Part shown: in pieces, positions 46,697 to 59,508 of the stretch
How the letters are laid out: each line of letters opens with the position of its first letter
Position numbering within the stretch: position 1 is the first letter of the stretch
DNA from: a virus
IMG/VR virus record: IMGVR_UViG_3300020468_000005
Location: 24,573 to 88,572 of that record
Length of the DNA stretch: 64,000 nucleotides
Direction: 5' to 3' (one strand)
The notes under the pieces: generated by a model
Databases searched by the model: none
Told to the model about the DNA's origin: nothing
What the model saw: the letters and a program-made list of their open reading frames with translations, nothing else
Position numbers and translations under genes: made by a program

Positions 46697-47860
46697 ATGG
46701 CATCTAGAATTAAAGTTGATGAAGTTACTAATTTAGCACAGTCGGGAGCTGTTTCATTTCCCACTGGTGGTGCGACTTTTAGTGGAAATGTAAACGTAAC
46801 AGGTAATATAGATTTTACTGGAAATTTATTACAGAATGGATCTCCCTTCGTAACCCTACCAGAGCAGAATGTAAACAATATAGGTTATACTTTAAGATCT
46901 GGTGGTAGTACAGGTGTTGCCTATTGGGACTCAAGTGGTGAGGGCGATAGTGGTGGCGGGAGTCAAGCCATGTATAAAGCAGGGTTTGACATTACTAGAG
47001 GTTTTGCTTGTGCAGGATATAGAGGAGGAAGTTCTTGGAAGAACGTTAATAGACTTGTAATGTCTACCTATACCAACACAAACCTAGGAGACTTACTAAC
47101 ATACTCTGGAGCATATCTTGACTGTGCACAGAATACTTCATTTAAGAATTACGTATTTGCTACTTGTGATAGTTGGAACGGAACTTGTAACTATGTTTCT
47201 TCAATTAGCATGGTAACTGAAACAAATACTGGATTGGCAACAGCAATGTCTTCTAACAGAAACAGATGTACATGTTTGAAAAAAGATTTCACATATGCAT
47301 ATGTACATGGAGGTAATAGTTCACAGATAACGAAATATAATTTATCAACTGCAGCAAGTAGTCAAAGCACAACTCACCCTAACGGTGACCAGAACAACCC
47401 TGCAGGTGGACAAGGTGCTACAGTAGGATGGATCAAACAAGGTTCTGGACAATCATTTAATTTCTCAACTGAAGTATTCCACTCTTGGACAGACAATCCT
47501 GGTACTGATGGTACTAACAAAACACTTTCAAGTAGAAATGGTTTCATGTACTGGAATACTGGTGGTGGTTATCGTACCTCTAGTGATTGGCATGTAAGAG
47601 ACTCTTACAATGGTGGACGTAGAGCAAGTGTAAGTAAGAATGGTATAACAACTGGTGAGGAAACAATGTTTACTGGTAATGAGTATGGTTTCATTGTAGG
47701 ACAATATGATGGAAACCAGAATAATAATGGTTACTTATTCACTTATGCAAGTCATAGTTTCCAAAGAGATTCTAGAATGGATAGTCTAGGAACAAGTGGA
47801 AGGGCATCTGCTGCTGGTGGAGAGTATGGTGTTCTCATGTACGGATACACAGGGATGTAA
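46697..47860 (+). CDS. Tail fibre adhesin, possible beta-propeller or lectin-like head
   Basis: This 387-residue protein starts MASRIKVDEVTNLAQSG and continues with GGATFSGNVNVTGNIDFTGN, a common attachment stalk. From about residue 95 a head follows with repeated short units bearing aromatic and Gly residues: FACAGYRGG, YVFATCDSWNG, YAYVHGGNSSQITKYNLST and YGFIVGQYDGNQNNNGYLF. Recurrent Y-x-x-x-G-G and S-x-x-x-x-Y-N-L elements hint at a Kelch-like or other propeller fold, but I cannot assign a family. A good ribosome site (GAGGAA, 46689-46694) lies upstream. Together with the preceding gene it forms a pair of distal adhesins. Confidence 0.6.
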   Translation: MASRIKVDEVTNLAQSGAVSFPTGGATFSGNVNVTGNIDFTGNLLQNGSPFVTLPEQNVNNIGYTLRSGGSTGVAYWDSSGEGDSGGGSQAMYKAGFDITRGFACAGYRGGSSWKNVNRLVMSTYTNTNLGDLLTYSGAYLDCAQNTSFKNYVFATCDSWNGTCNYVSSISMVTETNTGLATAMSSNRNRCTCLKKDFTYAYVHGGNSSQITKYNLSTAASSQSTTHPNGDQNNPAGGQGATVGWIKQGSGQSFNFSTEVFHSWTDNPGTDGTNKTLSSRNGFMYWNTGGGYRTSSDWHVRDSYNGGRRASVSKNGITTGEETMFTGNEYGFIVGQYDGNQNNNGYLFTYASHSFQRDSRMDSLGTSGRASAAGGEYGVLMYGYTGM

Positions 47861-47862
47861 CA

Positions 47863-48657
47863 ATGTCAGAAACAGTGAAACTAAAGTATTACATAGGCAG
47901 AAGATGCGATGAGATTGACTGGATCAGTACGTCCAATATAATTTGGAACATGTATGGTATCTGTGTATTCTCAGTAGAAGAACAATGGGCAAGAGATCTC
48001 TATACTTTACCTCGCTCTTTTGAAGAGATTAGTGAAGAGATGGGTAGATGGGGAACCAAACATTTTGGTGAGACTCGTACCGAAGTTAAAATTACATCTG
48101 AAGATCCACTATCATCTGAAAGTTTAATGGATGAGGAAGATGGAATTGAAATGCCTGATCCTTTAATCAATAAAGGTAAGACAGTAATTACATTACCTCA
48201 AGAAAGAATTGATGCTGCAATTGCGTTTATGAAATTGTCAGCAAAATTAATCATTGAAGATCAATATGATCGCAAATTCTTATCATTGAAATGTGAGGTA
48301 TCTAAACTTGAGCAATTTTTATGGGATGCACAGGTACGGGAATCCAACAATCAAGAGGGGGAAACTCCTGTGCTAGATAGTATAGCAGCTGCAAAAGGTG
48401 AAAAAGTTGCAGACGTTGCTACTTCAGTTCTAGCAAATCAAACAGCATTTAAAGATAAAGTTATTCTACTTAACTCAGAAATGGTTAAGGTGAAGACAGA
48501 ATTTAAAAACTGTGCTACAATAAAAGAACTAAACCTTCTTTGGCAGAAATACATGGGTATACCTATGCCTAATGATCAAATGCTTGAACTTGGACTAGTC
48601 CATGAAGAAGAAGCAGCACTAACAACTGACACTGTAGAAGCTGGTTTACATTTATAA
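47863..48657 (+). CDS. Putative tail fibre assembly chaperone-like protein
   Basis: This 264-residue protein lies directly after two adhesin genes. The N-terminal half (LKYYIGRRCDEIDWISTSNI, LPRSFEEISEEMGRWG) is unfamiliar. The C-terminal half from about residue 115 is helical, with KLEQFLWDAQVRESNNQEG, ETPVLDSIAAAKGEKVADVA and a TIKELNLLW end. This resembles the tail-fibre-assembly type (DUF4376/TAP-like) pattern of a W-x-x-Q segment, a TPxLDxIAxxxG core and a final TIxEL helix. A role in folding the upstream adhesins would fit the gene order, but the similarity is by eye only. Confidence 0.45.
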   Translation: MSETVKLKYYIGRRCDEIDWISTSNIIWNMYGICVFSVEEQWARDLYTLPRSFEEISEEMGRWGTKHFGETRTEVKITSEDPLSSESLMDEEDGIEMPDPLINKGKTVITLPQERIDAAIAFMKLSAKLIIEDQYDRKFLSLKCEVSKLEQFLWDAQVRESNNQEGETPVLDSIAAAKGEKVADVATSVLANQTAFKDKVILLNSEMVKVKTEFKNCATIKELNLLWQKYMGIPMPNDQMLELGLVHEEEAALTTDTVEAGLHL

Positions 48658-48669
48658 TTTAATTATACT

Positions 48670-49458
48670 ATGTCAAAAATTATGAAGGGTGGAATGACAC
48701 CTGAGCAAGTCGAGGACTGGGTAGAGAACTCGATGCATTATGGAATGACGCATGAGCAAATTAAGAACTTCGTCATTAACTCTAATGTAACTGATTTTCG
48801 TCAACTAAGACAAGTTCTAGTTGAAGTTGAAACTAGGAGTCATGAGAGAAAGAAACTCTGGATGGATCATCAGAGAAAAGAAATTAAGATAAATCAATTA
48901 AAAGCAAGGTTAGAAAAAGAAGAAGATGAATTTGAAAGGCAACTAATTCAAATTGATATAGATGAATACGAATTAGACTTAGGTAAATTCAAGGTTAATA
49001 TTAGACAGTATGACCATGAACTAGAACCTTTCATGGAATACATCAATAAGAACTTTGCAAATATAGATGAGTTAGCTGACGTTGCTAATTACTCTGAAGA
49101 GGATGAAAGAAAATATTGGATTGCTAGAATGGGTAAACAAGCAGCTATTGACATATATGCCAATGGCAGAATAGGTATTGGTAATATGGATTCTATCGCT
49201 ATGATGCGAGAAGAAGATCAGATATATGCAGTCAATATTGCCATGCAATATGCAGGTTTATTGAACACAGGTATATCTAAAATTCAAAATGAATTAAAAC
49301 CTCATATAGATAAATTACTAGGAGATGGAACCGAAGTAAGGTTCCCAACATTCGATGGGATTGAGAAAAATCTCAACCTTGACTTATTCAACAAATTGAC
49401 AGGATCCAGTGGTGAACAAAAAAGTCTTCAGTCTACCAATAAACCCGAAACTGAGTGA
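48670..49458 (+). CDS. Coiled-coil protein of unknown function in the fibre cluster (262 aa)
   Basis: Residues 45-125 are strongly charged and helical, with ETRSHERKKLWMDHQRKEIK and RLEKEEDEFERQLIQIDIDE, likely a long coiled coil. A second helical block has YWIARMGKQAAIDIYANGRI and GIGNMDSIAMM, a motif I associate with uncharacterised marine T4-like phage proteins. It overlaps the next gene (49409) by 50 bases in another frame. No catalytic motif is visible. A structural or assembly role is possible. Confidence 0.55.
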   Translation: MSKIMKGGMTPEQVEDWVENSMHYGMTHEQIKNFVINSNVTDFRQLRQVLVEVETRSHERKKLWMDHQRKEIKINQLKARLEKEEDEFERQLIQIDIDEYELDLGKFKVNIRQYDHELEPFMEYINKNFANIDELADVANYSEEDERKYWIARMGKQAAIDIYANGRIGIGNMDSIAMMREEDQIYAVNIAMQYAGLLNTGISKIQNELKPHIDKLLGDGTEVRFPTFDGIEKNLNLDLFNKLTGSSGEQKSLQSTNKPETE

Positions 49459-51145
49459 AGAGTTTGTAACTAATACATTCCTTCCCTTTTTAAAGAAACA
49501 TCGAGATTATATACTAGATCTATATTTTACATGTAGAATCCCTCCGTTCAATCAGGACGCTATGGGGGATTGTTTTACTGCAGATCAAGCATTGATTGAT
49601 GCTGCATGTTATATCTCAAATAAATCTGACATACCCTTATCAGCAACATTTAATAATATATGGGTTAGACCCGACCAAAAGAATTTAGATTTGTGGATAG
49701 AAAACTTTGCACCCATATATGATATGGGAGTTAGAGTGGTTACTTTACCACATACAACATGGGTATCTACAGGACAAATACAATCTGCCTTTCCAGAATT
49801 GTTCATAAAGAATACTATACTTAGAGAAGTAACAAGACCTAATGAAATAGTAGCACTAGCAGAAGCAGGTTTTCATTATATAAATCTTGATCGTGATCTT
49901 ATGCGAGATAGAGATCAGTTAGTTCGTATACAAAAAGCAAAAGATTATTGTGCATTTATAAAAAAACCTGTTATGCTCTCAATGCTTGTCAATGAAACAT
50001 GTTGGGGTGGTTGCCCTATCATGCCAGAGCATTATCAATATAACAGCACTAGAACAAAAGACGATCCCATATTTTTTGCTAGTCCTATTAGTAGAGTCTC
50101 ATGTTCTACATGGGATGTTGAGCATCCAGAGTATGATTTGAAACAAGCAAACCTACCTCCATGGAGAGAGGATTGGTTAGAAATGTTAGACCTTGGAATT
50201 GATACATTCAAATTACATGGAAGAGAACATGGTATGCGTCTCTTAGAAAGTATGGAACTTATTAAAAGATGGGCAGATGAAGAAGAGTATATGTTTCCAG
50301 AGTATAAAAAATATCAAGCAGAGATGCAGATGAAAGATGCTCCCATTAATGCATGGAGACAAAAAATCAAGACATGTAAGTTTGACTGTTGGGACTGTAA
50401 CTACTGTGAGAATGTGATTGAATACCACATGAAAAAAGCAGATATAGTAGTTCACTCACAAGTAGAAACATGCATAGAAGCATTTACCAATTCAGGTAAG
50501 TACCTATCTAATCATAAAACATATGACCCTAACGATCCTGATGCATACTTTAATATACCTGGTTTGTCATCAGCTAGAGTCAGACATTTCTTAAACAATC
50601 TCTGCTCTCAAGAAGGTGCAGTGTATCTTGAGGTTGGAGTATATGCAGGTTCAACATTCTGTGCTGCTATACAAAATAATGACATGGTTGCTGCGTATGC
50701 TAATGATAACTGGTCACAACCTAATCTACAACCAGCAAGAGAGGATATAGAATTACCAATAAATGATGTGACTGTCAATACTTTTGTAGATAATTTACAA
50801 CATAACGTAGCTACTGATAGTTTGGATTTCGATATTCAAGTACTCAAAGGTGATTCGTCACAACTAGGAAAAAAGGATTTCAAACATGATGTCAATATTA
50901 TTTTCTATGATGGAGATAATGCAGAACATAAAATGATAGAATTTTTTAACCAGATGTTGACATTTACTGATAAGGTGTTTACTTTGGTTATTGATGATGC
51001 CAATGTAGAACAAAACGTTGCTATAACAAAAGGTTGGGTAGAGAAACAGCAACTAAGAGTTTTATATGAAAGAGAGTTATTGAATGATCAAGAGGATGAT
51101 AAGATGTGGTGGAACGGATTGTATGTTCTTGTAATAGCTAAATAG
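49409..51145 (+). CDS. U32-like Fe-S-type protein fused to a SAM-dependent methyltransferase
   Basis: The N-terminal part (1 to about 340) looks like a U32 TIM-barrel. It shows LWIENFAPIYDMGVRVVTLP, KNTILREVTRPNEIVALAEA, GFHYINLDRDLMRD, PVMLSMLVNETCWGGCPIMP and a DTFKLHGRE element matching the KIEGR strand of U32 proteins. Cysteines fall in two groups: C198, C202 and C232, then C323, C327, C330 and C333. Known U32 proteins such as UbiU/UbiV and the tRNA hydroxylase TrhP carry [4Fe-4S] clusters and are hydroxylation factors. The C-terminal part (about 390-578) is a Methyltransf_24-like class I methyltransferase: YLEVGVYAGST (406-416), a VNIIFYDGDN motif and LVIDDANV. GTG at 49409 overlaps the previous gene by 50 bases. 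The substrate is unknown. Confidence 0.6.
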   Translation: MVNKKVFSLPINPKLSEEFVTNTFLPFLKKHRDYILDLYFTCRIPPFNQDAMGDCFTADQALIDAACYISNKSDIPLSATFNNIWVRPDQKNLDLWIENFAPIYDMGVRVVTLPHTTWVSTGQIQSAFPELFIKNTILREVTRPNEIVALAEAGFHYINLDRDLMRDRDQLVRIQKAKDYCAFIKKPVMLSMLVNETCWGGCPIMPEHYQYNSTRTKDDPIFFASPISRVSCSTWDVEHPEYDLKQANLPPWREDWLEMLDLGIDTFKLHGREHGMRLLESMELIKRWADEEEYMFPEYKKYQAEMQMKDAPINAWRQKIKTCKFDCWDCNYCENVIEYHMKKADIVVHSQVETCIEAFTNSGKYLSNHKTYDPNDPDAYFNIPGLSSARVRHFLNNLCSQEGAVYLEVGVYAGSTFCAAIQNNDMVAAYANDNWSQPNLQPAREDIELPINDVTVNTFVDNLQHNVATDSLDFDIQVLKGDSSQLGKKDFKHDVNIIFYDGDNAEHKMIEFFNQMLTFTDKVFTLVIDDANVEQNVAITKGWVEKQQLRVLYERELLNDQEDDKMWWNGLYVLVIAK

Positions 51146-52461: not shown

Positions 52462-52786
52462 GTTTAGACAAAAGGAGCATGTAGACTCTAGGCAGATATA
52501 TCTACCTTTCAAGGGAACTATCGAAACATGCCCCTATAAAGTTGGAGACTTATACGATGGTCGAGAGGTAATAGCACTGGGATTTACCGAGAATGTCTAC
52601 GGACATTACTATCATATTATTGTGGAAAGAGATAGAACTCATCTGAGAACTAAATTTCAATTTGATTCAAAGCATGATTTAAAATTCTCAAAACCATGTG
52701 AAAGGATGGGTGGTAAACCTCAGGACATGGAAAAACAATTGAGGAAATATTTACCAGATGGTCTCGCACAAGACACAGCCAACTGA
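52442..52786 (+). CDS. Hypothetical protein (114 aa), GTG start
   Basis: I do not recognise it. The frame opens at GTG 52442, within the end of the coiled-coil gene, and no internal ATG gives a reasonable length. It contains QIYLPFKGTIETCPYKVGDL, a Tyr/His-rich element (ENVYGHYYHIIVERDRTHLR) and a basic C terminus (QLRKYLPDGLAQD). The last 29 bases overlap the aminotransferase start. The chain of three overlapping genes (52276, 52442, 52758) implies co-translation. Confidence 0.5.
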   Translation: MVRKSSEFRQKEHVDSRQIYLPFKGTIETCPYKVGDLYDGREVIALGFTENVYGHYYHIIVERDRTHLRTKFQFDSKHDLKFSKPCERMGGKPQDMEKQLRKYLPDGLAQDTAN

Positions 52787-54005
52787 GTTAACATGCATTA
52801 GTACTAAATCTGAACTTAGAGCATGGACATCAGGTGAACTTGATAAAATTGTAACTAAGACCGATAGGTATTGGATTGAATATTCTGATGGTAATCGGTT
52901 ATTAGATTTACAGTCTGGAAACTCTGCGTATACTCTAGGGTATGGCAATAGAGAAGTCATGGATGCATTGGCATCTGAAGTTAATTTTATAAGAGGAAAT
53001 AAAGGAGAGACATGTGAACTCTCTAAGAAAATGGTCAACCTAGTTTGCTCTACAGGCAACTGGGATGTTTTGTCGTGGGCAATATCTGGATCATCAGCAG
53101 TTGAATCTGCTATCAAGATGAACGATCAGTACTGGGGTAATCAAGAAAACTTTATAGTTACGTTTGCACCTGGTTTTCATGGCACTACATATTTGACAAG
53201 AAATATGGGGGATACGTCTGATGGGATAAAAAGAATTAAGAAAGTACCAACACCTTTATGGAGAAAAGAAAAGGATCAAGAGAAGGAAGAAGATAAAGCA
53301 ATCAAGTATTTAAAACTTCTTATCAAAACATACAATTGTTGTGGTAGAAAGATAGGGTGTATTGTCATGGAAACACTACCATGGTTGAAAGGTGGTATCC
53401 CATGGTCACCACGTTGGTGGAGAACAGTACGTGATCTATGTAACGAGAATGATATATTAATGATCACTGATGACGTTTGTACGTGTTGGGGTAAAGGTGG
53501 TGGTTATCATGGTTGGCAAAAGTATGGAGTACAACCAGATATATCTGCACTCGGTAAATCTTTAACAGCTGGTTACACACCACTTGGATGTTCAGTTGCC
53601 AATAAGAAGGTAGGAGATGTATTGAAGGAACAAGATTGGGAGTTTGGACATACTTGGCAACCTACTATGACAGGTATATCTGCTATGAATGCAGTTAATA
53701 ATATAATAATTAGAGATAATTTGTTTGAATTATGCAAACCAATAGAGGACAGTCTAAGGTTTTTTGCTGAGGATTGTCTCGATAGGGGATATATTACTGG
53801 GTATAGAGTGAGTGATTTATTCCTATCACTTGATGTAAAAGAGGAGTTAGACCCAGAAGCATTAATTCAATCTGGACTAGCATTGAGTAAGACAAGAGAC
53901 AAATCAGTAAGAATAGTTGCTAACTTCTTAGCTGATCAAGAATTCTTTGACGAAATGCAAAAAAGACTATTCGGTTTCTTTAGTATAAATACATCTGAAG
54001 GATAA
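52758..54005 (+). CDS. Class III PLP-dependent aminotransferase
   Basis: This 415-residue protein shows the complete pattern of the class III (BioA/ArgD/GabT-like) fold-type I family. The N-terminal strand YWIEYSDGNRLLDLQSGNSA is followed by the PLP phosphate loop SGSSAVESAIKMN and the aromatic-His element FAPGFHGTTYLTRNM. Next come the cofactor Asp in MITDDVCTCWGKGG (D238; the family usually has DEV), then PDISALGKSLTAGYTPLG with the Schiff-base Lys at 267, and GHTWQPTMTGISAMNAV. All key residues appear intact, so it is probably active. Length is near the family norm. ATG at 52758 overlaps the previous gene by 29 bases. The substrate cannot be told from sequence. Metabolic enzymes are unusual among tail-fibre genes. 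Confidence 0.8.
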   Translation: MVSHKTQPTELTCISTKSELRAWTSGELDKIVTKTDRYWIEYSDGNRLLDLQSGNSAYTLGYGNREVMDALASEVNFIRGNKGETCELSKKMVNLVCSTGNWDVLSWAISGSSAVESAIKMNDQYWGNQENFIVTFAPGFHGTTYLTRNMGDTSDGIKRIKKVPTPLWRKEKDQEKEEDKAIKYLKLLIKTYNCCGRKIGCIVMETLPWLKGGIPWSPRWWRTVRDLCNENDILMITDDVCTCWGKGGGYHGWQKYGVQPDISALGKSLTAGYTPLGCSVANKKVGDVLKEQDWEFGHTWQPTMTGISAMNAVNNIIIRDNLFELCKPIEDSLRFFAEDCLDRGYITGYRVSDLFLSLDVKEELDPEALIQSGLALSKTRDKSVRIVANFLADQEFFDEMQKRLFGFFSINTSEG

Positions 54006-54018
54006 TAGTGCCAACCTA

Positions 54019-57000
54019 ATGAAGAGGGTAGTCGTCAGGGTATCCGATAACTATAGTATAGATTCAGCAGCAGCTGCAATTCTAAAATTATATGGTTATC
54101 TGACCTTTGTAGAATCATTTAGAAGTTTTTCCATAATCACATTTGATTGTCCAGAAAAGTATTCAAGCGGATTGCTTGATAAATTAAATGCTTTAGGACC
54201 TATTAAGAAGTGTACGTGGGATGGTGAGAAATTTGAAGTTGCTCCCGTGGATACTGGTGCAACATTAAGTGTAGATAATTCAAGTAGTTTAGAAATTAAT
54301 ACTAGTGGAGAATCAAATACAACTGCAAACACTAGAAATTTAGTTACCAGTGGTTCTGGTACAATATATGTAAAAGTACAAAATATTGGTGGACAAAATC
54401 TATATGTATTTTCCAGTAGTATTAGCGGAACATATTCTGTCTTTGCAAACCAAACTGGATTTGTGCAAGGTGGTACATATACATTTGACCAATCAGATTC
54501 TTCAAACGCTACACATCCACTTAGATTCTCTACTACGCCAGATGGAATACACATAACAGGTGGGTCAGAAATGACCACAGGTGTATCAACAACTGGAACA
54601 CCAGGTACTAATGGTACAACAGTATTGACTGTAAGTTCTGCAACACCATCAATATTATATTTCTATTGTGTTGCTCATCCTGGCATGGGTAGATATCAAG
54701 TTTCACCTATCAATAGGTATGGAACTGTTAACATCCATGACTACTGGCACTTAGATAGAATTACAAAACAAGACAGGCAATATTTAAACGGACAGTATAG
54801 TTACACTCAAGCAGGTGATGGAGTAGACATATATGTAATTGATACTGGTGTTCGTGGTGCAAGTAGACCAACAGGTAACAACGCAGCATTACATCCAGAG
54901 TTATACGATCCAGATTTTGTCAGTGACCTGAATGGTACTTCTGAACAACAGAACTACAGAGTATTTCAGTTGAGTCATTATGCGGGTGCATATGGAACTA
55001 ACAATGAGGATGATAACGGGCACGGTACATATTGTGCAATTCTTTCAGCTGGTAGAACAGCTGGCGTAGCAAAAGATGCAAAGATATATGCATTGAAAGC
55101 ATTTAGCTCAAGTAACCAAGGATCTTATACTGCAATACTTGGAGCATATCAAGCAGTTATAGATCATAATGATAATACTAGTGGAGATTATAAAAACAAT
55201 ACTAGACCAGCAATTATCAATGCTTCATTCGGACCTACCATTCCTAGTGAAGGATATCCTTATGTAGAACTAAACGATGCAGGTTCTGATAGCGGTGTTG
55301 ATGAAGAAATGTTAGATGACATTGAAGGAACAATATCATCAAGTTATAACATATTAGTGGTAAGATCTGCAGGTAATGGATTTAAAAATGCCAGTGATCA
55401 GTTTGTAGGACCAATGCAAACAAAAGCAATTGCAGGTAGTAGAACTGCTGGTTATGCAGATAACACAGATGGTGGTATTAATAACGTAGATGCTGATCAG
55501 AAAAAGATATGTGTTGGTGCATCAGAATATAATGACAGGTGGGCAGACTTTTCAAACTATGGTGCAGGTGTAACAACTGTTGCTCCTGGTGCTAGAATAT
55601 TGAGTCCTGCATATGATTGGACTGCTAATACACCATATACAAGTCCATCAAATTACAATACTATAAACGGTACATCATTCTCTTGCCCCATAGTAGTTGG
55701 TATTATGGCTTGTTACTTTAGTAAGAATGGATATACATCTAACACAAATAATTTAGCAGGTACCTCAAAGGTTTACCACAGAATTTATGCTGCAGCTGGA
55801 AATTTAACTGTTCTGGGAACTAATAACTATCCCACTAACAGTATAGAAGATAAAAAACTTATTGATAATCCATATGAAACTTCCAATGGATCAAATCAGT
55901 TGCTTGTTAAATTTAATCCTTCTGATTCAGCTCACTTCATTGGTAATGTTGGTAAGAAATGTCAATTAAGAACTACAGGTTCAACAGCAGGTGCTGGTGG
56001 TGCTACACCTACTGCATTTAATGTAACTACAACTTCACCTTCGTTCTCATACTATACTTTAAATGGAACTGACAGAAATGGTGCGGTAAGTGGAAACAAT
56101 GCAGGTGTTGCTGTATATGTTGGAGACACCATTAATTTTAATCTATCAGGTGTTAGTGGTTCTCACCCATTTTATATTAAAACTGTACAGGGAACTGGAA
56201 CTGGTAATCAGGTAAGTACACCAGCTGCTACTGGACAAGGATCTACAGGAACTACAACTGTGTCATGGACACCAAACACAGCAGGTACATATTATTATCA
56301 GTGTTCTGCACATAATGCAATGAATGGAACTATTACTGTCAGCAATGCACCTGGTAGTGGTACTGGAGTTACTGTTGGTGGTATCAATGTTTCTGAATTA
56401 TCACAAAGTGGTTGGTTAACTATACAGGCAGAGAACGCTGTTGACAATACAATAACTTTATTCGCTTCTAGTAATGCTACTGGAAGTACTACTGGTGGTG
56501 GATCAAATAATTACTTAGCACTTATAAAGTCAGAAGACTTACTACACGAGAGTTATGATGGTGTTGTATCTACATCAACAACTTTAAGATCTCAAACTGA
56601 TACACAAGAAGCTGCTGGTACTGGTACATATACTGATGTAATTTATTACCCAGTAGATAGCGGTGTTGATTTTAATTATTCTTTATCTACACAATCACTT
56701 ACCAGTAAACGTGGTGCGTTTTTCCCATACATAGACACCAATGTCACTTGGACTACTTCATCTGGATCTATAGCAACATATTCAAATGGTGATAGTGTTA
56801 ATATTGATCTAGGTTTAGATGGAACAACTTTTGCAAGTGAACCAACCTTTGAATTTTACACTCTCAGTGGTGATTCAATTGGATCATCAGGTCTTTCATT
56901 AGATCAGTCAACAGGTATATTGAGTGGAACTGTAACTGCAGATTATATTGATACGACATTTAACTTTACTATTACTGAGAATATAACAGCAAATGCAAGA

Positions 57001-59508
57001 TCATATTCCTTCACCACAACTGGAACTGGTGTTTTAGTTAACATCACACAACAACCAAGTGCTGCAAGTGTTGAAGCAGGTTCTGGTAATACTGCTACCT
57101 TCGGACCTGTAGCAGGTATTAGTTCTGATGGATCTACAATTATATTCCGATGGGAGTTCTCAAGTAATGGTGGTGTAGGTTGGTCTAGTGTTGTTGATGG
57201 TGGTGGATATAGTGGATCAAGTACAAATACACTTACCGTAGATGACGATTTTGCCAAGAACACTTATCAGTATCGTTGTAAGATGGAAACTAATACTTCG
57301 GTACAACCATCTTATACAAATGCAGCTACGTTAACAGTATTCAGAGTCATTACTATAAGCAATCAACCAACTGATCAGAATCCAATGGCACCCGCAGCTG
57401 CTACATTTACAGTTGCTGCATCAACATTAGATACTGCTACAATCGCATATCAATGGGAAAAATCTGAAAATAATGATGGTATCAACTACGCAACTATAGG
57501 TGGTGCAACAGGAGCAAGTTATGTTACTGCTGCTACAACATATGATGCTGATTACGGAGATTATTATAGATGTGTTCTCTCAGCTCAAGGTGCATCTAAT
57601 GTAACAACTACCTCTGCCAGAAATTTAGTTCAAAGAACTATAAACATTACATCACAACCAACTAATGATACTGGTGCTGTTGGTGGGACAAGATCATTTG
57701 GTGTTGCTGCTACTACATCAGATTCTGATCCTGGCGACATCACATTCCAGTGGCAAGTATCTATCACTAACGGAGCGTCTTGGTCTAATGTATCTGAAGG
57801 AACTGGTGGAACTACAGCTACATATACAACTCCTACATTAACTACAACATATGATGAGTATCAATATCGTTGTTTACTTTCAGCACCTGGTGCAACAACT
57901 ATACCTTCTAATGCTGCTACATTACAAGTAGAAACAGTAACTGTTGTTGTTACAAACCAACCAACTCCTCAGAGTGTAAACGAAAATTCTACTGCAACAT
58001 TTACTACACTTGGTGATACTACAATGTCACCTGTAGGTGGTAACGCTGCATCTTCTTCATTTGATACAGAACAATTTGATACACCAACTGGCGGTGGTGG
58101 AGGAGGATTTGAAGGGCAATCATCCCATGAACCTAATGTTACATACCAATGGGAAAAATCTGATAACGCAGGTGCTAACTGGAATCCAATTGGAGGTGCT
58201 ACTAGTGCATCATATACAACTGCAGCTACAGTATATGCTACTGATCATGATGACCAGTATCGTTGTGTTATTAGTGCAGTCGGTGCAGCATCTGATACAA
58301 CAACAAATGCTGTTACACTAACAGTCTTAAGAACATTTTCTATTACAGCACAACCTTCTAACCCAACTGCAAATGAAGGTGCTACTGCATCATTCTCTGT
58401 TAGTACATCTTCTAGTAGTGGAACTCCAACATACCAGTGGGAAAGATCTGATGATAATGGATCTAACTACTCTCCTGTTGGTGGAGCAACAAATGCAGCA
58501 TACACTACACCAACATTAGTACATGCTAATGATGACGATGATCGTTATCGTTGCGTAGTATCTCTTGTTGGATCTGCTGCTGACATAACTTCTGATCATG
58601 GACTATTGACTGTTCTAAGAGTTATTTCTATTAGTCAACAACCAGTAGATACATCTGTAATTGAAGGGCAGACCGCAACCTTTAGTATTACTGCTGCGAT
58701 CACTAGTGATTCTATAGCATATCAATGGCAGAAATCTACAGACAGTGGTGGTAATTGGACTAATATCAATGGTGCAAACGCAGCATCATACACTACACCT
58801 GCAACAACATTCCCAACAAGTCCATCAGAACAGTTCCGTTGTGTTTTATCTAACGCAGAAGCAACCACTGTAACTTCTAATTCTATAACTTTAACTGTTA
58901 ATGAATCTGAATTTGTATCTGGTCCTACTACAGTAACACCATTTGTTGATCCAGACACTACCAAAACATTATCGAGAAGACCAGTTATTACTACTTCTGC
59001 ATTCGTTTCTGAATATGCAGGATCAACTCATGCTTCTACATTCTGGAGAATTAGAAGAGTAAGTGATAACGTAACTGTATATGATACTGCAGGTACATAT
59101 GCTAATGGTGATACAGGTAACTTAACCTCATTTACTGTGCCATCTGCTGTTCTAGATTTTGACACTACCTATCAGGTACAGGTTAAATTTAGAGATAATG
59201 CTAACTTGGAAAGTGCTTATACATCTGCGGTTAATTTCACAACACCATTTGTAGATCAACCAGATATCCAAACAATAGTACCAGCATTTAACCCAACAAT
59301 TAATGTTGATCCTATTGCACTGAAGACTGGTTATCAGCATACCTCTAGTGATTGGCAGTTTGCTGCAACAACAGCTTTCTCACCTCCTGTTCACCAATCA
59401 CTTGGTAACCCAACTAACTTAACACAGTATTCTTTACCTGTTAACGTTACTTTGAACGCAAACACTACATATTATGTAAGAATTAGATTCAACGTTAATC
59501 CTACCTAA
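54019..59508 (+). CDS. Subtilisin-like serine protease with cupredoxin-like and Ig-like domains (1829 aa)
   Basis: Residues 1-75 (VVVRVSDNYSIDSAAAAILK; KKCTWDGEKFEVAP) look like an I9-type propeptide. A cupredoxin-like domain follows (TFDQSDSSNATHPLRF; FYCVAHPGMG). The S8 catalytic core is complete: D275 in VIDTGV, H335 in NGHGTYCA, N453 in RSAGNG and S553 in NGTSFSCP. A second cupredoxin-like domain lies near 660-775 (TYYYQCSAHNAMNG), then a beta-rich linker, six Ig-like domains (about 1010-1630, nt 57046-58905) and two C-terminal FN3-like units. There is no signal peptide, so it probably travels on the virion. It lies directly before gp13. A role in cutting the host surface or maturing virion proteins is inferred. 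Ig copy four carries a Gly-rich insertion. Confidence 0.8.
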   Translation: MKRVVVRVSDNYSIDSAAAAILKLYGYLTFVESFRSFSIITFDCPEKYSSGLLDKLNALGPIKKCTWDGEKFEVAPVDTGATLSVDNSSSLEINTSGESNTTANTRNLVTSGSGTIYVKVQNIGGQNLYVFSSSISGTYSVFANQTGFVQGGTYTFDQSDSSNATHPLRFSTTPDGIHITGGSEMTTGVSTTGTPGTNGTTVLTVSSATPSILYFYCVAHPGMGRYQVSPINRYGTVNIHDYWHLDRITKQDRQYLNGQYSYTQAGDGVDIYVIDTGVRGASRPTGNNAALHPELYDPDFVSDLNGTSEQQNYRVFQLSHYAGAYGTNNEDDNGHGTYCAILSAGRTAGVAKDAKIYALKAFSSSNQGSYTAILGAYQAVIDHNDNTSGDYKNNTRPAIINASFGPTIPSEGYPYVELNDAGSDSGVDEEMLDDIEGTISSSYNILVVRSAGNGFKNASDQFVGPMQTKAIAGSRTAGYADNTDGGINNVDADQKKICVGASEYNDRWADFSNYGAGVTTVAPGARILSPAYDWTANTPYTSPSNYNTINGTSFSCPIVVGIMACYFSKNGYTSNTNNLAGTSKVYHRIYAAAGNLTVLGTNNYPTNSIEDKKLIDNPYETSNGSNQLLVKFNPSDSAHFIGNVGKKCQLRTTGSTAGAGGATPTAFNVTTTSPSFSYYTLNGTDRNGAVSGNNAGVAVYVGDTINFNLSGVSGSHPFYIKTVQGTGTGNQVSTPAATGQGSTGTTTVSWTPNTAGTYYYQCSAHNAMNGTITVSNAPGSGTGVTVGGINVSELSQSGWLTIQAENAVDNTITLFASSNATGSTTGGGSNNYLALIKSEDLLHESYDGVVSTSTTLRSQTDTQEAAGTGTYTDVIYYPVDSGVDFNYSLSTQSLTSKRGAFFPYIDTNVTWTTSSGSIATYSNGDSVNIDLGLDGTTFASEPTFEFYTLSGDSIGSSGLSLDQSTGILSGTVTADYIDTTFNFTITENITANARSYSFTTTGTGVLVNITQQPSAASVEAGSGNTATFGPVAGISSDGSTIIFRWEFSSNGGVGWSSVVDGGGYSGSSTNTLTVDDDFAKNTYQYRCKMETNTSVQPSYTNAATLTVFRVITISNQPTDQNPMAPAAATFTVAASTLDTATIAYQWEKSENNDGINYATIGGATGASYVTAATTYDADYGDYYRCVLSAQGASNVTTTSARNLVQRTINITSQPTNDTGAVGGTRSFGVAATTSDSDPGDITFQWQVSITNGASWSNVSEGTGGTTATYTTPTLTTTYDEYQYRCLLSAPGATTIPSNAATLQVETVTVVVTNQPTPQSVNENSTATFTTLGDTTMSPVGGNAASSSFDTEQFDTPTGGGGGGFEGQSSHEPNVTYQWEKSDNAGANWNPIGGATSASYTTAATVYATDHDDQYRCVISAVGAASDTTTNAVTLTVLRTFSITAQPSNPTANEGATASFSVSTSSSSGTPTYQWERSDDNGSNYSPVGGATNAAYTTPTLVHANDDDDRYRCVVSLVGSAADITSDHGLLTVLRVISISQQPVDTSVIEGQTATFSITAAITSDSIAYQWQKSTDSGGNWTNINGANAASYTTPATTFPTSPSEQFRCVLSNAEATTVTSNSITLTVNESEFVSGPTTVTPFVDPDTTKTLSRRPVITTSAFVSEYAGSTHASTFWRIRRVSDNVTVYDTAGTYANGDTGNLTSFTVPSAVLDFDTTYQVQVKFRDNANLESAYTSAVNFTTPFVDQPDIQTIVPAFNPTINVDPIALKTGYQHTSSDWQFAATTAFSPPVHQSLGNPTNLTQYSLPVNVTLNANTTYYVRIRFNVNPT
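57046..58905 (+). repeat. Six Ig-like repeats in the protease gene
   Basis: Units of about 95 residues each follow I-x-x-Q-P, E-G-x-x-A-T-F, YQWEKS-x-x-x-G-x-N-W, an A-x-Y-T-T-x-T strand and Q-Y-R-C-V-x-S, ending in T-x-x-x-x-L-T-V. Examples are YQWEKSDNAGANW, YQWERSDDNGSNY and YQWQKSTDSGGNW. Unlike classical Ig domains, only the second cysteine of the usual pair (YRC) is kept; the first position is not Cys. Confidence 0.8.

Follow-up and report, generated by a model that had tools for sequence, protein, structure and literature searches.

What would a virus gain from a single protein that joins a U32-type barrel to a SAM methyltransferase and is encoded beside its tail fibres? A preliminary description of this locus had proposed such a fusion, and it was examined here in the window, i.e. 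the whole 64,000-nt stretch of DNA that was analysed, and in phage and bacterial relatives.

A two-domain gene family of cyanophages

The single open frame described at 49409-51145 (plus strand) was present and intact, running unbroken from a GTG at 49409 to a TAG at 51145 (578 aa). The gene probably starts one codon downstream, at GTG 49412, which would give a 577-aa product, because its relatives and the annotation of P-HM2 begin at that codon (MNKRVFSLP...). An AGGA lies 8-9 bases before GTG 49412, and the start of the gene overlaps the upstream gene, T4-GC 353, by 47 nt. The gene and its two domains are:

49412..51145, plus strand: U32-like/methyltransferase fusion gene (T4-GC 354, phrog_1458), probable start GTG 49412
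49412..50443, plus strand: U32-like (beta/alpha)8 barrel with a C-terminal cysteine tail, residues about 2-345, assigned from eight strands, hhalign and PDB 5d88
50540..51142, plus strand: class I SAM methyltransferase domain, residues 378-578, assigned from Methyltransf_24 matches in relatives, a structure model and PDB methyltransferase matches

The fusion protein belongs to a family that annotated cyanophages list as T4-GC 354 and PHROGs as phrog_1458. A tblastn search returned 123 phage records, each with at least 80% protein coverage, whose hosts or names were without exception Synechococcus, Prochlorococcus or otherwise cyanophage. The two-domain fusion was kept in 123/123 records at identities to the window protein from 81% down to about 49%, and IMG/VR contained many further members, some only 40-45% identical. 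As a yardstick, 1,837 records matched a gp13 query (378 of them named Synechococcus, 61 named Cyanophage); compared with the 123 fusion records, this shows that T4-GC 354 is a frequent flexible gene and not a core gene. Against four relatives at 80-85% identity dN/dS was about 0.07-0.12, and thus the frame is not a chance one; purifying selection acts on both domains. The copy in P-SSM3 (L088:8001-9688) is in two pieces with no CDS annotated and is probably frameshifted or missequenced. This is a conserved cyanophage family previously unrecognised as a two-part enzyme, and the phage records examined label it "hypothetical protein".

Relation of the N-terminal half to the U32 superfamily

The Pfam U32 profile (PF01136 / IPR001539), which had been suggested as a check on the barrel, gave no match in the window protein or in any of 55 diverse relatives. 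Direct assignment of the N-domain with NCBIfam and Pfam gave no matches either, and a PDB sequence search with the whole fusion protein returned nothing useful. The Pfam check alone would therefore have failed, and the relation was shown by profile-profile and structure comparison. In tblastn, the window protein gave a weak match (E 2) to ORF039 of Escherichia phage EcS1, which matches Pfam U32 at 6e-11 and represents a family with 250 matching records, or about 218 from T4-like phages once 32 cyanophages are subtracted, RB69 ORF050c included. The reverse tblastn with the EcS1 U32 protein matched cyanophage metaG-MbCM1 over residues 5-374, covering the whole N-domain, at E 4e-5, and hhalign of the cyanophage family against EcS1 gave 93%.

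A joint cyanophage and T4-like profile was searched against 297 genomes from the phylum of a Desulfocapsa MAG, and 29 of them contained matching proteins, roughly 360-450 aa in length. Some bacterial relatives also exceeded the Pfam U32 cut-off, with a match at 7e-14, and a cyanophage-only profile recovered three of the bacterial relatives at 1e-12 to 1e-13. With hhalign, the cyanophage family matched the bacterial seven-cysteine U32 subfamily at E 1.9e-24, that subfamily matched a canonical UbiU/TrhP/RlhA set at E 2.7e-23, and the direct comparison between the cyanophage family and the canonical U32 set gave E 7e-8. When single sequences were compared by hhalign with UbiU, UbiV, TrhP and RlhA of E. 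coli, the signal was too weak alone, and the alignments settled the relation.

The predicted structure (pLDDT 87) had eight barrel strands (E7-10, 35-41, 77-80, 110-113, 132-135, 157-160, 189-193 and 266-268). Foldseek with this model found PDB 5D88, the U32 crystal structure of Mk0906 (E 4e-6, TMt 0.64), and the OLB35 phage 'Peptidase', which is of the RB69 type (E 4e-9, TMt 0.73). A profile from an 18-sequence superfamily alignment, with members from cyanophages, coliphages and bacteria, matched 5d88 at 4.6e-16. The proposed U32-type barrel was in this way supported by profile-profile comparison, tblastn intermediates and structure comparison, and the N-terminal half almost certainly falls in the same superfamily, U32, as UbiU, TrhP and RlhA. 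A protease role was set aside, 'peptidase' being a historical name in U32 for members with hydroxylase roles.

Seven invariant cysteines in a non-canonical layout

The conserved motifs of the barrel are:

49991..50014, plus strand: N195-E196-x-C198-x3-C202 motif; N195, C198 and C202 invariant in the 18-sequence alignment
50102..50104, plus strand: C232, invariant
50207..50224, plus strand: F-K268-L-H-G-R272 motif, aligned with the U32 'FKIEGR'; K and R invariant
50375..50407, plus strand: C323-x3-C327-x2-C330-x2-C333, candidate metal/Fe-S site; invariant in the 55 relatives and the 18-sequence alignment

The cysteines listed in the preliminary description (198, 202, 232 and 323/327/330/333) were found at those positions, and all seven were unvaried in the 55 divergent relatives covering them. 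The 18-sequence alignment contained exactly these seven invariant cysteines (198, 202, 232, 323, 327, 330 and 333), plus N195, K268 and R272, and E196 was replaced by Asn in some bacterial members. TrhP, RlhA and UbiU/UbiV share with the cyanophage barrel the superfamily fold, an 'FKIEGR'-type motif and a richness in cysteines, but they carry CX6CX15CX3C where the cyanophage barrel has NExCx3C...C and Cx3Cx2Cx2C; we know of no fused methyltransferase in any of them. CX6CX15CX3C is the cysteine motif of characterised U32 oxidases (PMC11574389, PMC6747719). It was present in 27 of 33 canonical proteins, in 0/55 family members and in 0/18 superfamily rows, and the phage-family pattern was absent from the canonical U32 set. 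Because the canonical pattern is absent, the N-terminal half was placed in the U32 superfamily but not among the canonical U32 oxidases, and the chemistry of those oxidases need not transfer. The earlier interpretation thus held for the superfamily barrel, the fusion to a SAM methyltransferase, the fibre cluster and the conserved cysteines, but the cysteine layout differs from that of the characterised enzymes. Judged from the sequence, a group of three and a group of four cysteines would be consistent with two metal sites.

The methyltransferase half

Pfam Methyltransf_24, the second profile suggested, matched 51/55 relatives (best E 4.9e-11), but the window protein itself scored 22.7 bits, below the cut-off of 26.3. 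The glycine motif and acidic residues of the SAM motif set that had been described were present (E408-V-G-V-Y-A-G-S-T, D433, FYDG with D501, and DDxN at 529-532) and conserved, with G410, G414, D433, D501, D529, D530 and N532 invariant in the 55 relatives and Glu or Asp at position 408. The domain model had a pLDDT of 90 and a pTM of 0.90. We assign the C-terminal half, with high probability, to the class I SAM methyltransferases and, among these, to the Methyltransf_24/TylF/COMT-TrmR clade. TrmR/YrrM and TylF/MycF resemble the phage domain in the class I SAM fold and in acidic residues at the expected loops, but the structural matches had only 10-16% identity, and the phage domain differs from TrmR and TylF in being part of a fusion and in a C-terminal WWNG motif of its own.

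TrmR (YrrM) methylates the product of TrhP. The top match of the methyltransferase profile in the PDB sequence search was YrrM/TrmR (E 7e-4), which is what an analogy to the TrhP-TrmR pair would predict. This match does not single out TrmR, because TylF- and COMT-type profiles fitted equally well (hhalign: TylF 95.8%, Methyltransf_3 95.3%, Methyltransf_24 91%). When only the methyltransferase model was used for a structure search, no one substrate class stood out from the mixture of RNA, catechol and small-molecule methyltransferases returned, and the structural matches of the whole-protein search included MycF and SpnH.

The YrrM match is one of three observations that point to a nucleic-acid modifier, in which one chain would combine a TrhP/RlhA-like step with a TrmR-like one and yield a hydroxylated and then O-methylated base (an mo5U34-like tRNA, an rRNA base or a nucleotide). 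The characterised U32 oxidases except UbiUV act on RNA bases (PMC6599085, PMC11574389), and, among phages, the closest relatives are encoded in the RB69 gene cluster for arabinosyl-cytosine modification of DNA. However, the fusion genes adjoin fibres and not tRNA or nucleotide genes, the 64,000-nt window has no tRNA genes, and hhalign did not separate TrmR/COMT-type from TylF-type enzymes. We regard a nucleic-acid target as unlikely, though still worth serious consideration.

Linkage to a fibre cassette

Upstream of the fusion gene are three cassette partners, with neighbour counts taken over 50 dereplicated representative loci:

46697..47860, plus strand: fibre-like protein (T4-GC 351, phrog_1417), family in 48/50 loci
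47863..48657, plus strand: T4-GC 352 (phrog_1604), in 46/50 loci
48670..49458, plus strand: T4-GC 353 (phrog_1409), overlapping the fusion gene, in 45/50 loci

With fibre family T4-GC 351 adjoining at nearly all of these loci, the location in a tail-fibre cluster was confirmed. A Pfam search with the products of 352 and 353 gave no convincing family. P-HM2 carries the 351-354 cassette, and its sister phage P-HM1 has three other genes at the same place. Contig L078 (2081-11685) carries the cassette twice, the second set consisting of fibre, 352-like, 353-like and U32-methyltransferase genes, and between the two sets the fibres are 38% identical and the enzymes 58% identical. In S-RIM14 and one further contig (L093) the fusion gene is at another location without the cassette. 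Fibre and enzyme distances were correlated (r 0.85), a value that had no control, may merely reflect phylogeny and is given no weight here. Because the fibre and two small partners accompany the gene when it moves, disappears or is duplicated, the linkage favours a fibre-related target over tRNA.

In divergent phages the neighbours include genes for a 2OG-Fe(II) oxygenase and a flavin-type tryptophan halogenase, some of which overlap the fusion gene; the tryptophan-halogenase genes that adjoin or overlap it are at L099:7679-9202, L095:7641-9185 and L116:4503-6014. The fibre region of the window also contains a class III aminotransferase gene at 52758-54005 (Aminotran_3, E 4.5e-45), and 54019-59508 encodes an 1829-aa virion-like protein with an apparent subtilisin-like protease domain (DTG, HGT, GTS) and Ig-like repeats.

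The aminotransferase is among the observations that would fit the tailoring of a small molecule, sugar or lipid, by which a methoxylated group would later be joined to the fibre or to the host envelope. The proximity of the methyltransferase to TylF/macrocin sugar O-methyltransferases in hhalign, its structural matches to MycF and SpnH, and the AMP-ligase, molybdopterin oxidoreductase and radical SAM genes adjoining bacterial relatives are consistent with this as well. However, the aminotransferase lies outside the conserved cassette and no glycosyltransferase was found among the examined neighbours, and we find such tailoring improbable.

Relatives in T4-like phages and bacteria

The closest known viral relative of the cyanophage barrel is RB69 ORF050c / phrog_5757, the 'U32 peptidase' of T4-like enterobacterial phages. 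The two share the fold, the seven cysteines and the NExC and FKxxGR motifs, but the RB69-type protein has no methyltransferase domain, is about 22% identical to the cyanophage barrel, and is encoded not in a fibre cassette but among the genes for arabinosyl-hydroxycytosine modification of DNA, in most cases along with chorismate mutase, the enzyme whose product is prephenate. A CM_2 chorismate-mutase gene was near the U32 gene in 4/5 RB69-type phages examined, RB69 itself being without it, and in EcS1 (L091:3482-5693) the two genes overlap by 4 nt. In EcS1 and at three further loci (L211, L212 and L213) the U32 gene has near it both a small gene resembling chorismate mutase and a homologue of thymidylate synthase. 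The arabinosylated base has been reported to derive from 5-hydroxy-deoxycytidine, a step assigned to the thymidylate-synthase homologue (PMC13390438). The RB69-type setting suggests a prephenate supply for 5-hydroxy-dC synthesis. Since chorismate mutase adjoins and prephenate is needed by the U32 hydroxylases TrhP and RlhA (PMC6599085; also PMC11574389 for U32 hydroxylases), phage U32 proteins may supply the hydroxyl by a prephenate-dependent route. No chorismate mutase gene was found in the cyanophages tested, and the cyanophage enzyme would therefore have to use host prephenate.

The bacterial seven-cysteine U32 proteins (among them L306, L309, L311 and L216) are homologous to the N-domain over their full length, with all seven cysteines invariant, but are standalone and not fused. 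Their neighbours are genes for molybdopterin oxidoreductases, MoaA, an AMP-ligase, B12-radical SAM proteins or secretion. Molybdopterin oxidoreductases, AMP-ligases or B12-binding radical SAM proteins are encoded alongside at L306:1025-8208, L309:4074-7843 and L311:13051-15831, and the relative in the Desulfocapsa MAG (L216:839-1999) lies, as judged from translations, between an RTX-repeat-like protein and an HlyB-like type I secretion ABC transporter.

This diversity of bacterial neighbours, like the non-canonical cysteine layout, would be compatible with a barrel that is not a hydroxylase, the seven-cysteine subfamily instead carrying out another Fe-S or zinc reaction or serving as a substrate-binding scaffold for the methyltransferase. 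Against this stand the strict invariance of the cysteines, lysine and arginine across very distant relatives and the chorismate-mutase gene near the RB69-type homologue in four of the five phages checked, and we consider a non-hydroxylase barrel very improbable.

A proposed hydroxylase-methyltransferase

The literature searched contained nothing relevant on U32 in cyanophages. In the model that we favour, the barrel would be a divergent seven-cysteine U32 protein holding one or two [4Fe-4S] clusters and, as UbiUV, TrhP and RlhA suggest, would carry out an O2-independent hydroxylation in which host prephenate donates the oxygen. The class I methyltransferase, given its domain class and the fusion, would then O-methylate the new hydroxyl, and the target would be the cassette's own fibre or a group attached to that fibre. 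By analogy with the characterised enzymes, hydroxylase-type chemistry is rather likely. Hydroxylation followed by O-methylation has a chance just short of even, and, given that chemistry, a fibre-related target is plausible, if tentatively so. In its general form, though not in every detail, the proposal that U32-type chemistry is coupled to methylation and serves the fibre cassette is likewise a tentative one. The full version is unlikely to be right throughout: a hydroxylase/O-methyltransferase in one polypeptide chain, independent of O2 and equipped with two Fe-S sites, that would decorate the phage's own tail fibre, within a wider phage fibre-tailoring toolkit that includes 2OG oxygenases and tryptophan halogenases, together with a seven-cysteine prephenate-dependent U32 branch common to T4-like phages and bacteria.

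Cyanophages of this group, viruses of marine photosynthetic bacteria, are abundant, and their two-part enzyme, judged by analogy, may well first hydroxylate and then methylate its target. Through this family, viruses are linked to U32 oxidases, enzymes with a still unsolved oxygen chemistry, and the superfamily gains a new cysteine layout distinct from those studied. Where the hydroxyl of arabinosyl-hydroxycytosine in phage DNA comes from can now be tested directly, and the putative hydroxylase-methyltransferase pair, covalently joined, is a system in which substrate transfer can be tested.
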